Shown here piece after piece: positions 7,991 through 13,885 of a DNA stretch of 64,000 nt (the first letter of the stretch is position 1; each line of letters begins with the position of its first letter). The stretch is from Halopelagius inordinatus. GTDB lineage: Archaea; Halobacteriota; Halobacteria; Halobacteriales; Haloferacaceae. Below the pieces are notes generated by a model. It saw only the letters and a list, made by a program, of their open reading frames with translations. It made no database searches and was not told where the DNA came from. The position numbers were made by a program, and so were the translations under genes. Location: the NCBI RefSeq assembly GCF_900113245.1, contig NZ_FOOQ01000004.1, positions 1-64,000 of the forward strand. The letters run 5' to 3'.

Positions 7991-8126
7991 TGTCGGTACT
8001 GCCGTTCGCGGGACCTTAACTCTCTAGTGGACAGAAGGGAATCGACGGAGAGACGCCACCGTCCGGCCGCGCTCGGACCCAGAACTCGCGCGGAGAGATG
8101 GTGTCAACGATACATTATATGCGGCG

Positions 8127-8134
8127 TTTTATAT
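8127..8134 (+). promoter_or_regulatory. TATA box for the regulator gene at 8170
   Basis: TTTTATAT lies about 40 nt upstream of the chosen ATG at 8170. A second AT-rich element, ATTATAT, is at 8113-8119. With a usual 25-27 nt TATA-to-start spacing, the transcript would begin near 8155-8160 and have a leader of about 10-15 nt containing GGGTGAG just before the ATG. Confidence 0.5.
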
Positions 8135-8169: not shown

Positions 8170-8964
8170 ATGGTCTATCAAGACGAGCTCCAAGAGATCG
8201 AGTTCATCGCTCGCTCGGAGAATCGGGTACAGATCCTCGAAGAGTTGCGGAAAGCCGGGACGCTGAGTAAGGAGGAGCTTCGGGGCACGAGCGAGGTTGC
8301 GCGGACGACTCTCGTTCGAAACGCCGATGCGCTCGTCGAACGCGGGTGGATAGAGAACAGCAACAACCAGTACTCTATCACCCCGTGTGGCGAACTACTG
8401 GTCGAGGAGTTGACCGGCCTGTTGGAGACCGTCCGCGAGGCAAAGCGGCTACAGCCGTTTTTCCAGTGGATGCCTCCCGCCGCGTTCGGACTGAGCGTCG
8501 AGGTGCTTTTGGACGCCGACGTGACGGTTTCGACGTCCGAAAACCCGTACGCGCCGGTCAACAGACACGTCGAGACCCTCGCGTCGGCCGAACGGGCGCG
8601 GTGTCTCCTCCCGGCGGTCGATCCACAGGGGATGCGGACCGTCGAACGCCGCTTTGCGGCCCGAGACGGAGGAGGGGACCACGAACTCATCGTCACCGAG
8701 AACGTCGCCGAAACGCTTCGGACGGACCCCGCTTTGGACGAGACGATAGACGCACTGTTGTCGACCGACGGCATCGCCGTCCGCGTCTCCCCGAGAGACG
8801 TGCCGTACTACGCGGGTATTCTCGACGGAGTCGTACAGATCGGCGCCTCGGACGGGAAGGGAGTCCCGCAGGCCCTCTTGGAGACCGACGCCGACGAGGC
8901 CCGAGAGTGGGTGAGGGCTCTCTACCGCGACTACCGGGCCCAATCGACGGCGTTCGACAGGTAG
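8170..8964 (+). CDS. Winged-helix regulator with C-terminal FilR1/DUF1724-like domain
   Basis: 264-residue predicted DNA-binding protein. Residues about 10-80 form a winged helix (ARSENRVQILEELRKAGTLSK, then RTTLVRNADALVERGWIE as the recognition helix and following strand). The rest resembles the middle domain named after methanogenesis regulator FilR1 (DUF1724), common in haloarchaeal regulators and thought to sense a small molecule. The ATG at 8170 was preferred over the in-frame start at 8098 because the TATA box lies between them. It is the gene directly upstream of the VWA/Kelch pair, with a perfect palindrome in the intervening 133 nt, so it is the obvious candidate to control them. That link is inference. 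Confidence 0.88.
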   Translation: MVYQDELQEIEFIARSENRVQILEELRKAGTLSKEELRGTSEVARTTLVRNADALVERGWIENSNNQYSITPCGELLVEELTGLLETVREAKRLQPFFQWMPPAAFGLSVEVLLDADVTVSTSENPYAPVNRHVETLASAERARCLLPAVDPQGMRTVERRFAARDGGGDHELIVTENVAETLRTDPALDETIDALLSTDGIAVRVSPRDVPYYAGILDGVVQIGASDGKGVPQALLETDADEAREWVRALYRDYRAQSTAFDR

Positions 8965-9024
8965 CCGAACGCCCTCCCGTCGCTCTCTCCGTGCGGGCCT
9001 CCGATTCACGTTAATAGGTACCGA

Positions 9025-9041
9025 TGTGCACGGTATGCACA
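9025..9041 (+). promoter_or_regulatory. Perfect palindrome upstream of the VWA/Kelch operon, candidate operator
   Basis: TGTGCA, 5-nt spacer CGGTA, TGCACA: a perfect 6+6 inverted repeat 17 nt long. It lies 61 nt after the regulator stop and 56 nt before the VWA start. A weak TATA-like TTAATAGG at 9011-9018 would place transcription initiation inside the palindrome, the position of a repressor site. No second copy is seen upstream of the regulator gene itself. Confidence 0.5.
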
Positions 9042-9086
9042 GCGGGCACGAGGTAGCGTCATATGCGATGGCGAAGAAGTGAAATC

Positions 9087-9093
9087 GAGGTGA
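9087..9093 (+). promoter_or_regulatory. Shine-Dalgarno site for the VWA protein gene
   Basis: GAGGTGA ends 4 nt before the ATG at 9098. It matches the archaeal anti-SD target (GGAGGTGA) in 7 positions. This marks the ATG at 9098 as the start and implies a leadered transcript, unlike many genes in this window that look leaderless. Confidence 0.65.
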
Positions 9094-9097
9094 AATA

Positions 9098-10963
9098 ATG
9101 TCAGATGGCCTCGCAGGTTCGGGCGACAGAGTCGAACGGGGGAGAGAGGAGTCGGGCGGCGTACTCGGGCGGATACCGAGGCGAACCGTACTGAAATCCG
9201 CGGTCCTCGGGGTCGGACTGCACGGGTTCTCCGCTCGGGCGGCGGCGCAGTCCGATTCGACGGCGGGGTTCGTGGACGTGTTGAGTGCGGACCCGAGTAA
9301 CTACCCCTCGATTCTCGTCAACGTGAGCGTCGACACGGACGCGGGGCGGAACGGGAACCTCTCGCGGGAGGACTTCCAGATAACGGAGGCGGGCGTCGAG
9401 AAAGCGATCCAGAGCTTCAGATTCACCAGCGCGAGCGCCGACATCGTCTTTCTGTTCGACGACACGGGGAGCATGGACGGAGAGATAGCGGACATGCAAG
9501 CGGGAGTCAAAGGCCTCACAGACGAGATAGAGGCGGCGGGTATCGACGCGAGATACTCTCTCGTGACGTTCAAAGACTCGGTCGAGACCGACCTCGAGTT
9601 CACCGACGACGCCAGCGCGTTGAAGTCGCGAACCGACAGACTCACCGCGAGTGCGGGCGGCGACGGACCGGAGGACAACTTCGACGCGATAGTCCGAGCG
9701 CTCGGTCTCGACTTCAGGCCCGAGGCTCAGAAAATCGTCGTGGACATCACCGACAGCGTCTCTCACTACCGCGGCGACGGAAGCGGCGTCTCCGATTACA
9801 CCATCGACGAAGTCCAGACGATGGTGGAGGAAAGCGGCGTCGCGTACGTCGCCGTCGCCCCCGCGACGACCGCACCCGAATCGAGCAAACGGGCGCTCGC
9901 GGAGCGAACGGGCGGACTCTGGATGGAGATCCGAAGCGCCGACTTCAGCCGGATTCTCGAACGCATCGAGCGACTCGTCGTGACCACGTACGTGGTCGAG
10001 TACCTCACGGACACGGCTCCGAACGAGAGCAACGACCTCACGGTGACCGTCACCGACCCCGACAGAGGGACCGGGAGCGACGAAACCACCGTGGACGTTC
10101 CCTCGGGGAAAGTGGACCGGGACGCACTCGTGAGGAGTACCGGCGACACCCGAGCGTTCTACGAGATGGCCGTCACCGGAGAGATGAGACTCGGAGAGAA
10201 CTCGGACCCAAAAGACGCCGAGTTCCCCGATTCAGTCGAGGGGTCGACCGCGATAGGGTCGGTCGCGGGGGGCGGAACGGACGGGCTCCGGTTCTCGGGG
10301 GAGGTCACCAACGTCCGCGTGGGCGGACCGGCGGAGTTCGAGATAGACGGCGAGTCCGTGGGCGGCGACACAGTCGAGTCGATGAACACGATTGCGATTT
10401 CGAGCACCGAGGACCGACGAGCGTACTACGACGTTCGCGCCAGCGACCGCATCTATCCCGGCGAGCGCGCGGACGTAGAGAAGATGGAGTCCCCCGAACC
10501 GTTCCCCGGCAGCGAGGTTACGGGGTCGGTCGCCGAACGCGGTACCGACGAGTTCTACTTCACCGGTCGAATCGACCACTTCTCTCTCGACGGACCGGCG
10601 GACGTGTCGGTGAACGGCGAACGGGTCGACCCCTCCGAGGTGACCTCCGACGACGAGTCGGACTCCAACGGCGGCGACGACTCCGGCGGCGGGGAACTCG
10701 ACGACGAACTGAGAATCGTCAGCACCGCCGACGAACGCGCGTTCTACGAGATTACCGTCGACGGTGAAATCGAACCGGGAGACAGAGCAAATCTCACCGG
10801 AGCCGACTATCCGGACTCCGTCGAGGGACGCACGGCGTCCGGTTCCGTGGCGAAGGGAGGGATAGACAGCTTCCGGTTCTCGGGGGAGATACTCGACGTT
10901 CGACTGGACGGTCCGGCGGACGTCCTCGTCAACGGAGACCGGTACACCTCCGGTGGTGCCTGA
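9098..10963 (+). CDS. Tat-exported VWA-domain protein with three C-terminal repeats
   Basis: 621-residue secreted protein. A long Tat signal has RRTVLKSAVLGVG at residues 28-40 and a likely cleavage after ARAAA near 50. The von Willebrand factor A domain (about 113-300) has the metal-binding DDTGSMD (D121, T123, S125), and HYRGDG follows further in. After a short linker come three imperfect repeats of about 85 residues (about 341-425, 429-513, 537-621), each with a D/E-x-R-A-F/Y-Y-E/D motif, a V-x-G-S-V-A element and an F/Y-x-F/Y-[ST]-G strand, ending in G-P-A-[DE]. Repeats 2 and 3 are separated by an acidic Ser/Gly linker. VWA domains usually bind protein ligands. No membrane anchor is visible. 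It is 3 nt ahead of the Kelch gene, so the two are co-translated. Confidence 0.9.
   Translation: MSDGLAGSGDRVERGREESGGVLGRIPRRTVLKSAVLGVGLHGFSARAAAQSDSTAGFVDVLSADPSNYPSILVNVSVDTDAGRNGNLSREDFQITEAGVEKAIQSFRFTSASADIVFLFDDTGSMDGEIADMQAGVKGLTDEIEAAGIDARYSLVTFKDSVETDLEFTDDASALKSRTDRLTASAGGDGPEDNFDAIVRALGLDFRPEAQKIVVDITDSVSHYRGDGSGVSDYTIDEVQTMVEESGVAYVAVAPATTAPESSKRALAERTGGLWMEIRSADFSRILERIERLVVTTYVVEYLTDTAPNESNDLTVTVTDPDRGTGSDETTVDVPSGKVDRDALVRSTGDTRAFYEMAVTGEMRLGENSDPKDAEFPDSVEGSTAIGSVAGGGTDGLRFSGEVTNVRVGGPAEFEIDGESVGGDTVESMNTIAISSTEDRRAYYDVRASDRIYPGERADVEKMESPEPFPGSEVTGSVAERGTDEFYFTGRIDHFSLDGPADVSVNGERVDPSEVTSDDESDSNGGDDSGGGELDDELRIVSTADERAFYEITVDGEIEPGDRANLTGADYPDSVEGRTASGSVAKGGIDSFRFSGEILDVRLDGPADVLVNGDRYTSGGA
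10118..10960 (+). repeat. Three coding repeats of about 255 nt within the VWA gene
   Basis: Protein-level repeats encoded at about 10118-10372, 10382-10636 and 10706-10960. Aligned by eye the first and third are closest (DSVEGSTAIGSVAGGGTD versus DSVEGRTASGSVAKGGID); the second has diverged. The pattern suggests duplication of a beta-rich domain. Boundaries are approximate. Confidence 0.8.
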
Positions 10964-10966
10964 CCG

Positions 10967-12109
10967 ATGTACTCTCGCCGAGCGTATCTGCGCCTCGTCG
11001 GTACCGGGGTCGGAGCGACGATGGCCGCGGCCGGGGGAGCGTCGGCCGAAGTCGAGCGACTGCCGCCCGAGGCGGCAGAATCCGGTTCGTGGGGCGAACG
11101 AGAGCCGTTGCCGGTGCTCCAGAGCGACGCCGGTGGCGGCGTACTCGACGGAGAGCTCTACTACTTCGGAGGGTTCGAGACCGGAACGGGACTCGACGCG
11201 GTGCGGCGAACGCTCGTCTTCGACCCGGAGGCGGACGACGGTGACGGTTGGAGAGAGGTCGAACCGATGCCGAGAGCGCTCTGGGCACCCTGCGGAGTCG
11301 CGTCGGAGAGGAAACTGTTTAGCTTCGGCGGCGCGCCGTCGAACGGCCCCTACGGCGGCGAGAACCCGCCGTCGGACGTCGTCTTTCGGTACACGCCCGA
11401 CGACGGGTGGACGAACCTCACCGAGGCGGCGGGCGTGCGCTGTCCGTATCCGAACTGGGGGATGAAGGGCGCGTACAACCCGGACGACGGACTCGTGTAC
11501 TGCGTCGGCGGCGGAACGAACGTCACCGACCGAGAGAGCGCCTCGAACCACGGCGCCGATAGCCGCACGCCCGGCACCTTCGACGAGAGCCGAATCTGGG
11601 CGTTCGACCCGAAGCGCGAGACGGTCGCTGACCCGGACTTAGCGCGGATGCCCGAAGCCAAACGGTGGCCGGCGGTCGCACTCGTCGCGAGCGGTGGAAG
11701 GCAGTTCCTCCACGCCATCGCCGGGAGACGCGGCGGGGCCGGACCGACGGCGTCCAACTACCGGTACGATTTCGACCGACACGAGTGGTCCGAGATGACG
11801 CCCGCGCCGCGAGGCGGAAACTACGGGACGACGGACAACCCGGTCGTCGACAACGACGTCTACCTCTCGCACGGCATCTTCTGGTCGCCCGGCGACGACC
11901 TCTCTACGGACATCTACGGGACGGTCTGTCACCAGTACGACCCCGAGGAGGACGCGTTCCGTCGGCTGTCGTCGCCGCGATACCCTCGCACCGGGCCCGT
12001 AGACGCCGTCATCGACGGGACGCTCTACGTCGTCGGCGGACACGTGAAACGCTACGACGAGGACGGCCTCCACGAGTGCGTCGAACACAACGAGACGTTC
12101 TCCGTGTAG
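10967..12109 (+). CDS. Tat-exported Kelch-repeat protein
   Basis: 380-residue exported protein. The signal MYSRRAYLRLVGTGVGATMA has a twin-arginine motif and is cleaved probably after GGASA. The body carries Kelch-type repeats typical of a beta-propeller: GGVLDGELYYFGG, ERKLFSFGG, DDGLVYCVGGG and IDGTLYVVGGHVKRYD. There are about five to six blades, with no catalytic galactose-oxidase residues that I can assign. The gene is 3 nt after the VWA gene, so both are likely made together and may act as one cell-surface or secreted complex. Ligand is unknown. No lipobox or transmembrane anchor is present. Confidence 0.88.
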   Translation: MYSRRAYLRLVGTGVGATMAAAGGASAEVERLPPEAAESGSWGEREPLPVLQSDAGGGVLDGELYYFGGFETGTGLDAVRRTLVFDPEADDGDGWREVEPMPRALWAPCGVASERKLFSFGGAPSNGPYGGENPPSDVVFRYTPDDGWTNLTEAAGVRCPYPNWGMKGAYNPDDGLVYCVGGGTNVTDRESASNHGADSRTPGTFDESRIWAFDPKRETVADPDLARMPEAKRWPAVALVASGGRQFLHAIAGRRGGAGPTASNYRYDFDRHEWSEMTPAPRGGNYGTTDNPVVDNDVYLSHGIFWSPGDDLSTDIYGTVCHQYDPEEDAFRRLSSPRYPRTGPVDAVIDGTLYVVGGHVKRYDEDGLHECVEHNETFSV

Positions 12110-12730: not shown

Positions 12731-13885
12731 ATGGACCACGACGGGAGCGCAGAGCGGACGGGGTACGAGGGCGGACTACCGAGACGGGCGGTGCTCGCCG
12801 GGGCGGCGACGCTTCTCGCGGGATGTTCGGCGTCGCAGTCCGAGGGCGAGACGGTCGGTTCGGACGGGAACGACGACGCCGGACGGACCGAGGCGGGGAC
12901 GGGCGCGACGGCGTTCGCGTCCGACCCGCCGGCACGGGTTCGACAGCGCGGAGGCCAGTACGTCTCCGTCTACGAGGCGGTCATCCCCTCCGTGGCGTTC
13001 ATCCGCGTCTCGACGGCGCGCGGCGACGCGCAGGGTTCTGGGTGGGTGTACGACGGCGACTACGTCGTCACGAACGCCCACGTCGTCTCCGGAGGAGACG
13101 ACATCACGGTGGAGTTCCGCGAGGGCGACTGGTCGCGCGCGGAGGTGGTCGGGAGCGACACCCGAACCGACCTCGCGGTTCTCTCAGTCGAACGCGTCCC
13201 CTCCTACGCGGAACCGTTGTCGCTCGTCGACGAGGAACCGCCGGTCGGAACCAAGGTGATGGCTCTCGGCGCGCCGTTCTCGCTTTCGGGGTCCGCCTCC
13301 GCGGGCATCGTCAGCGGCCTCGACCGGTCGATACGAACTCGGACCGGATTTCTCGTCGCCGACGGAATCCAGACGGACGCCGCGGTGAACCCCGGCAACT
13401 CCGGCGGGCCGTTGGTGGACCTCGACGGGCGCGTCGTCGGCGTCATCAACTCCGGCGGCGGCGACAACGTGGCGTTCGCCGTCTCCGCCGCCGTCGTAGA
13501 CGACGTCGTGCCGTCTCTCGTCGAGGACGGGCGTCACCGAGCGGCCTACATCGGAATCCGCGCGCAGTCCGTGACCCCCGCCGTCGCCTCCGTCTACGGG
13601 TTCGAGGAGGCGAGCGGGGTTCTCGTCGCGGACGTCGTCTCCGGGAGTCCGGCCGACGGCGTCCTCCGCGGCGCGACGGGCACTCGAAGCAGTCTCGGCG
13701 ATACGGTGCCGACCGGTGCGGACGTGATTCGCGCCGTCGAAGACACGCCCATCGAGACGGAGGACGACCTGTCGTCGTACCTCGCGGCCGAGGCGCAACC
13801 GAACGAGACGGCGACGTTCGAGGTGTGGCGCGACGGCGAACTCGTCGAACTGGAGTTGACGTTCGGCACCGCGCCGGACCGGTGA
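12731..13885 (+). CDS. HtrA/DegP-family serine protease, Tat lipoprotein
   Basis: 384-residue trypsin-fold protease placed on the outer face of the membrane. The signal has LPRRAVLAGAATLLAGC, i.e. a twin-arginine motif and a lipobox with Cys32. The catalytic triad is His117 (VVTNAHVVS), Asp147 (RTDLAVLSV) and Ser224 (NPGNSGGPLVD). A C-terminal PDZ domain (about residues 275-375) includes the GVLVADVVSGSPADG binding region. This architecture fits quality control or cleavage of exported proteins. Substrates are unknown. An Asp/Gly/Thr-rich spacer of about 30 residues follows the lipidated cysteine, common in haloarchaeal lipoproteins. Confidence 0.94.
   Translation: MDHDGSAERTGYEGGLPRRAVLAGAATLLAGCSASQSEGETVGSDGNDDAGRTEAGTGATAFASDPPARVRQRGGQYVSVYEAVIPSVAFIRVSTARGDAQGSGWVYDGDYVVTNAHVVSGGDDITVEFREGDWSRAEVVGSDTRTDLAVLSVERVPSYAEPLSLVDEEPPVGTKVMALGAPFSLSGSASAGIVSGLDRSIRTRTGFLVADGIQTDAAVNPGNSGGPLVDLDGRVVGVINSGGGDNVAFAVSAAVVDDVVPSLVEDGRHRAAYIGIRAQSVTPAVASVYGFEEASGVLVADVVSGSPADGVLRGATGTRSSLGDTVPTGADVIRAVEDTPIETEDDLSSYLAAEAQPNETATFEVWRDGELVELELTFGTAPDR

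Follow-up and report, generated by a model that had tools for sequence, protein, structure and literature searches.

The gap between a winged-helix regulator gene and a VWA/Kelch gene pair in this DNA of Halopelagius inordinatus (a stretch of 64,000 nucleotides, referred to below as the window) holds a short perfect inverted repeat, and an earlier note on the sequence read regulator, operator and operon in one line as a local control unit. The question raised by this locus is whether the repeat is the operator of the adjacent regulator and, if so, in which direction it would act on the genes behind it.

The regulator, its neighbours and the palindrome

The regulator gene (8170-8964, forward strand) encodes a protein of 264 amino acids. 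Pfam identifies an N-terminal HVO_A0261_N domain (PF25213, E 5.5e-21; 74.7 bits, above the cut-off of 35) followed by a FilR1_middle domain (PF08350, E 5.5e-26; 91.5 bits, above the cut-off of 27) that runs to residue 258. The protein is therefore FilR1-like, as had been proposed, and of the HVO_A0261_N/FilR1_middle type. No model for a C-terminal receiver (REC) domain was matched at E ≤ 0.001, which indicates that this is not FilR1 proper, a two-component response regulator. No TrmB domain was found among the Pfam matches at the same threshold, NCBIfam returned no model at E ≤ 0.001, and MarR (PF01047) reached 20.9 bits, under its gathering cut-off of 24.6. Matches to winged helix-turn-helix proteins of solved structure were only weak (best E 0.005). 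The start codon at 8170 is preferred over that at 8098, the alignment with homologues beginning at 8170; the sequence TTTTATAT lies between the two candidate starts, at 8127-8134. Five matches to such regulators are present in the same genome and seven in one other genome of the genus.

Downstream on the same strand lie a gene for a VWA-domain protein of 621 amino acids (9098-10963; PF25106, PF00092 and PF13519), with a putative Shine-Dalgarno-like GAGGTGA (9087-9093) ahead of its start codon, and a gene for a Kelch-repeat protein of 380 amino acids (10967-12109; PF01344 and other Kelch models). The 3-nt spacing between the two suggests that they form an operon. The VWA protein carries an RRTVLK signal that by eye is of the twin-arginine (Tat) type; a strict Tat pattern was narrowly failed. 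Shortly past the Kelch gene, at 12731-13885, is a gene for a DegP-type protease with Trypsin-like and PDZ domains.

The regulator and VWA genes are separated by an intergenic gap of 133 nt (8965-9097) that contains the proposed control element; this gap and the gene order are as the earlier note described them, and so is the perfect 17-nt inverted repeat at 9025-9041, TGTGCACGGTATGCACA. The repeat can be written as TGTGCA-CGGTA-TGCACA or as GTGCAC-N3-ATGCAC. With up to two mismatches to TGTGCA-N5-TGCACA allowed it is the single site in the window, where the chance expectation is a mean of 0.35, with at least one site in 26 of 100 shuffles. With no more than one mismatch it is the single site across the 3,529,311-base (3.53-Mb) genome, in which the exact core GTGCA-N5-TGCAC also occurs once, with 41 further sites at one mismatch. 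Some inverted repeat of 6+6 nt with a spacer of 3-8 was present in 14.5% of 5000 shuffled gaps and in 35% of 954 stretches of 133 nt from the window. Such repeats are too frequent for the palindrome to serve as evidence by itself, and this use of it was rejected; it is the recurrence beside relatives of the regulator that places the 9025-9041 palindrome beyond chance. DNA methylation was also considered, since in a study of a haloarchaeal consortium (PMC11001535) a single genome had methylation at GDGcHC, a motif that covers GTGCAC. This account was set aside, as it leaves the placement beside regulators unexplained.

Recurrence of the site beside related regulators

Homologues of the regulator were sought at E ≤ 1e-50 in 170 genomes of the family. 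Six were found, at 40-43% identity, and all six (6/6) have TGTGCA-N5-TGCACA, with at most two mismatches, no further than about 100 bp from the regulator gene. In five the site follows the gene, and in one (L019) it precedes it, in a gap between divergent genes. Nine regulators were then aligned and used as a profile on 392 genomes of the order, with scoring limited to six candidates in each genome; this gave a match at E ≤ 1e-50 in 120 genomes. From these listed matches a subset was taken and joined with the earlier loci, giving 135 different regulator copies, 131 of them long enough to count. The copies were divided at 225 bits, a cut chosen after the data had been seen. A site with at most two mismatches lies within 300 bp of 51 of the 77 closer relatives, a set that includes the window regulator and those used to build the profile, but of only 1 of the 54 distant paralogs (Fisher p 1.1e-15, uncorrected for relatedness). 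The window site has no mismatches and is likewise less than 300 bp from its regulator gene. Within the same distance the site is absent from 26 of the 77 closer relatives, six of which (L037, L039, L040, L042, L043 and L051) form a group set well apart.

The site also emerges when it is not specified beforehand. All 4096 half-sites were combined with the 13 spacers from 0 to 12, giving 53,248 combinations that were counted within 300 bp of the regulators. The first two ranks near the closer relatives were GTGCAC-N3-GTGCAC (53/77) and TGTGCA-N5-TGCACA (51/77), which are two descriptions of one site; the median combination occurred near 1 of the 77. The best unrelated combination was the GC-rich TCGACG-N1, found near 42/77 closer relatives; as this is also the commonest combination near the distant paralogs (29/54), it is taken to be background.

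When the site, labelled here as the core GTGCA-N5-TGCAC with at most one mismatch, is mapped on a FastTree phylogeny of the 131 regulators, it clusters: 13 changes are required compared with 41 for shuffled labels, and none of 500 shuffles was as low. Site-bearing regulators occur in eight family-level groups (f1, f4, f5, f6, f7, f8, f12 and f17). Moreover, residue 46 of the recognition helix is threonine in 42 of 50 site-bearing closer relatives compared with 6 of 28 siteless ones, and residue 51 is asparagine or serine in 43 of the same 50, isoleucine being commonest (27/50) in the distant ones. Beside a more distant regulator (172 bits; L243, in genome G446) the site reads TGTTCA-CACCG-TGAACA and the next half-site is changed likewise; the variant site precedes a gene resembling one for a Tat lipoprotein. 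Such a symmetric change, although a single case, would be expected of a DNA site bound by a dimer and not of a codon pattern.

Since the palindrome is linked to the closer relatives in eight family-level groups, the reading of regulator, operator and operon as one unit is well founded, and by comparison the regulator-operator link is well supported. The 17-nt palindrome is most likely the switch by which regulators of this little-studied family act on the genes beside them.

A composite element and its TATA-like box

The palindrome is part of a longer element. Half-sites of the window stand at 9026, 9035 and 9044, the last being a third, weaker half-site (GGGCAC, 9044-9049, forward strand) 9 bp past the second, and many related loci show half-sites with a period of 9 or 18 bp. 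In the relatives such an array is followed, usually at a fixed distance, by GGRTA and a TGATA-like box. The equivalent element of the window (9025-9064, forward strand) consists of the operator, GGTA (9052-9055) and the TATA-like TCATAT (9059-9064), 17 nt past the palindrome. A sequence-only model of this arrangement, R1, was built from 23 aligned sites of other genomes with the window excluded; its E-values are rough estimates. In the window R1 matches 9025-9064 without gaps at 18.3 bits, its sole forward match, the other match being the reverse strand of the palindrome. Against the whole genome the E-value is 0.0099, with no further forward match among the 150 of 866 first-look candidates that were scored.

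The place of the box was examined at 44 related sites, again without the window; 19 of them form a close group with an additional conserved block in common. Their AT content, taken in 4-nt steps, peaks at +26 to +37 from the operator (0.51-0.66), the runner-up being +54 to +57 (0.51). A box-like word is present at +31 to +39 in 30/44 sites, and outside the close group at 12/25 compared with 2/25 upstream. TACACTRA was found at 24 sites, 18 of which belong to one group of close relatives; in 23 it stands at +28, the exception lying 18 bp further on. The earlier note had favoured a TATA-like element just upstream of the palindrome, placing the transcription start inside it. The hexamer concerned, TTAATA (9011-9016, forward strand), does exist, but a box at the equivalent place was found in only 3/44 related sites, and the claim is not borne out. 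The TATA of the window is most likely TCATAT, a weak one, and the start of the 9098 gene is predicted near 9085-9090. Because the TATA-like box is conserved downstream of the operator, the operator would occupy a position typical of activators rather than one that blocks the start.

In the reverse direction, R1 was run over the 392 genomes with 16 candidates scored per genome and stricter filters. Of 47 elements listed at E ≤ 1e-3, 38 have a regulator from the profile search within 300 bp; 21 of the 47 are training sites and near a regulator by construction, and among the remaining 26 the figure is 17, many of these being closely related to training sites. Nine elements lie away from a regulator. 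One (G209) adjoins pieces of a broken regulator, one (G258) is 832 bp from a regulator with remnants nearby, and one (G312) is 1.6 kb away; for the other six (G457, G211, G226, G034, G417 and G289) the flanking DNA examined held no regulator or only a weak match. In L230 and L240 fragmented regulator copies stand beside an intact-looking element.

The bare perfect palindrome is found in 108 of the 392 genomes. At 30 such loci (L060-L089) a fragment of the regulator family was nearby in only one; the spacers are AT-rich and a second copy often lies 41 bp away. Three of four loci examined (L073, L076 and L084) have, by eye, a pair of genes for a ribbon-helix-helix antitoxin and a PIN toxin at the perfect TGTGCA-N5-TGCACA; the perfect AT-spacer sites are possibly a widespread haloarchaeal toxin-antitoxin autoregulatory operator. 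As the bare palindrome often marks something other than a family regulator, the composite element is a more specific marker than the 17-mer.

A further feature was seen in the f7/g34 loci (L117, L119, L103 and others), where a conserved block, TGCGGTAGGTGG, stands at a distance of 60-62 bp from the operator, or of 79 bp in a single locus, close to where transcription is predicted to start. Several hundred bases with little conservation then lead to a DUF5795 gene; in L100/L106 the gene after the TGCGGTAGGTGG region is CoA-ligase-like. This region is possibly a leader or a small RNA. Rfam models run on eight f7 loci found no structured RNA at the block, their one match being a sub-gathering hit to HgcC in L119, on the opposite strand and beyond the DUF5795 gene.

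Predicted targets, probable mode of control and known systems

The genes behind the element are varied; their reading frames are our own predictions, some of which are surely wrong. Tat-exported or secreted-looking products include the VWA protein of the window and another in L033, an FG-GAP protein (L019), an alpha/beta hydrolase (L049), a beta-helix protein (L056) and a cellulase-like protein (L232). Pfam identifies DUF7344 targets in L034, L090, L097, L101 and L128, which suggests regulator cascades; in L044 and L046 a DUF7344 gene, recognised by likeness to L034, stands directly behind the element. Further targets are an ATP-grasp/CoA-ligase gene (L227), a DUF5795 gene (L119), an ornithine-cyclodeaminase family gene (L059) and, by Pfam, a SelR-domain gene for methionine sulfoxide reductase B (L017), while Pfam gave no match for several others. 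Related regulators adjoin a SelR-domain gene in both L017, on which Pfam was run, and L052, the next gene being MsrA-like by eye, and these neighbours hint at an oxidative signal. Among 17 loci, targets were examined for seven elements that do not adjoin a regulator; by a crude pattern six precede a Tat-like protein, compared with 15/172 other neighbours. Since four of the six are mutually related, only six of the remaining 33 targets pass the pattern and the VWA protein of the window narrowly fails it, an enrichment of the elements before Tat-exported proteins is suggestive only.

The pairing of regulator and VWA gene was seen in three genomes (the window's own, G016 and G385) and is not general. 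At E ≤ 1e-20, 10 of the 170 family genomes have a homologue of the VWA protein, counting the window's own; seven others were examined with wide flanks and in most the homologue lacks the pairing. Conservation of the site before homologous operons, which the earlier note named as a check, is partial. In G385, of another family (L242), a related regulator and a VWA gene of 53% identity point away from each other, and a one-mismatch operator between the two lies on the VWA-gene side, facing that gene. In G016 (L170), a 52% identical homologue stands beside a regulator but the element is upstream of the regulator and faces away, and the other six of the seven have no regulator beside the VWA gene. 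R1 has no match in L242 at E ≤ 1, so that the TATA-like TGATTAAAA behind its operator is a by-eye reading. In G001, another genome of the genus (L177), a site precedes a Tat gene and then a related regulator, the better R1 match facing away from the Tat gene.

From these comparisons we infer, with a probability of about 0.7, that 9025-9064 is a regulated promoter in a local one-component unit controlled by the 8170 regulator, most likely by activation. The protein, a one-component regulator with a FilR1-type sensor, would bind TGTGCA-N5-TGCACA as a dimer, with half-sites 11 bp apart from centre to centre, and a further subunit may occupy the weaker half-site 9 bp on. Binding would depend on a signal perceived by the FilR1_middle domain. 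By the predicted TATA (R1 and the 44-site comparison) the operator is upstream of the BRE/TATA of the putative VWA-Kelch operon, and because it is directly so the bound regulator would most likely recruit or stabilise TBP/TFB and so activate these genes. The conserved operator-TATA distance fits activation through TBP/TFB contact, and for TrmB-type archaeal regulators a motif upstream of BRE/TATA is described as going with activation and a downstream one with repression (PMC4158304). A genome-wide regulon in this organism was rejected: the exact core occurs once and R1, with 150 of 866 candidates scored, gave no second forward site, so that a local unit is the simplest account. Across the haloarchaea, the chances seem even that one-component FilR1-type regulators form a clade with a uniform module, in which TGTGCA-N5-TGCACA and 9-bp-phased half-sites at a fixed distance upstream of GGRTA-TGATA would activate a neighbouring exported (often Tat) surface protein or DUF7344 regulator. 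This would amount to modular control of the secretome, with paralogue-specific variants such as TGTTCA-N5-TGAACA.

The same regulator and operator could also serve repression, either by keeping TFB/TBP from the promoter or, if TTAATA were the true TATA, by an operator lying over the start. As a hexamer TTAATA resembles a TATA box fairly well and its distance from the palindrome is suitable, and a repressing element directly upstream of the BRE is known from the haloarchaeal (Haloferax) phaRP promoter, as cited in PMC6085418; because of that element the position of the operator is no proof of sign. Against this, boxes at the TTAATA place are rare in the related sites (3/44 versus 30/44 downstream) and the R1 alignment passes through TCATAT in exact register, so that repression is considered unlikely.

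Two accounts would dispense with the regulator as the binding protein. That the palindrome arose by chance or is the operator of another regulator, for instance of toxin-antitoxin genes, draws on the frequency of 6+6 inverted repeats in gaps of this size, on the single family fragment near the 30 perfect-site loci and on the antitoxin/toxin-like pairs at three of them. However, no such pair adjoins 9025, the genes behind it being the VWA and Kelch genes; the toxin-antitoxin class has AT-rich spacers and often the second copy 41 bp away, and the match of the window site to the composite element extends to the TATA-like box. This account is very unlikely. Still less credible is a coding array, in which the palindrome would be the codon by-product of a small Cys-Thr repeat peptide (TGC ACN NNN TGC ACN, or C-T-x-C-T). 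The 9-bp period is three codons, many relatives read CTxCTxCxxYTD in one frame, and the distance to the next conserved block is in-frame at 16/19 loci; the frame in the window reads ATG TGC ACG GTA TGC ACA GCG GGC ACG AGG TAG. Yet an in-frame stop falls within 14 codons at 11 of 45 downstream sites, the window included, the DNA element (GGRTA..TGATA) runs past the stop in the cases examined, and the frame is shifted at 3/19 loci, the distances to the next block being 60, 61, 62 or 79. In addition, some loci have their site upstream of the regulator, in part with reversed orientation, and the half-sites of L243 change symmetrically. On the in-frame stops and frame shifts the coding peptide was rejected, and a promoter controlled by the 8170 regulator is preferred.

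Among known systems, FilR1 of Methanosaeta harundinacea is likewise a winged-helix protein with PF08350 (PMC5847659). It binds promoters in EMSA and ChIP, its phosphorylation by FilI raises promoter affinity, and positive regulation was suggested as possible by its authors (PMC3991700). FilR1 differs in having a C-terminal REC domain (PMC3991700), which the 264-residue 8170 protein lacks. No FilR1 operator was found for comparison, the main text of PMC3991700 containing no palindrome, binding-motif, conserved-motif or footprint terms. The promoter of the Natrinema halolysin gene sptA resembles the present one as a haloarchaeal promoter of an exported protein with semi-palindromic elements upstream of the TATA (PMC6085418), but its elements are GAAAT-N7-ATTTC and TTCTT-N10-AAGAA, and GTGCA/TGCAC is absent from the main text of that paper. 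The antitoxin/toxin-like pairs of L073, L084 and L076 share the perfect TGTGCA-N5-TGCACA, which stands where the pair begins; they differ in their protein families (by eye), in the AT-rich spacer and in the sites often paired 41 bp apart, and no FilR1-type regulator was found at these three loci.

In the literature searched, no operator or ligand study on haloarchaeal PF25213 + PF08350 regulators was found and, by titles and the opening parts of abstracts, no GTGCAC/TGTGCA-type operator in haloarchaea. The palindrome would be a new operator for its regulator family, within a kind of control unit that is already known. TrmB, TrmBL1 and Tgr offer the likeness of short palindromic operators beside local target operons and of the activation from upstream of BRE/TATA that is proposed here, although they belong to another protein family and use the operators TACT-N3-AGTA and TGM (PMC4158304). 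Each haloarchaeal genome has several paralogues of the PF25213 + PF08350 regulators. With an operator defined, its position next to the TATA given and a set of targets predicted, this family becomes testable and the prediction of targets in other genomes is helped, and the present locus could add a case to the archaeal activators with a defined promoter geometry.
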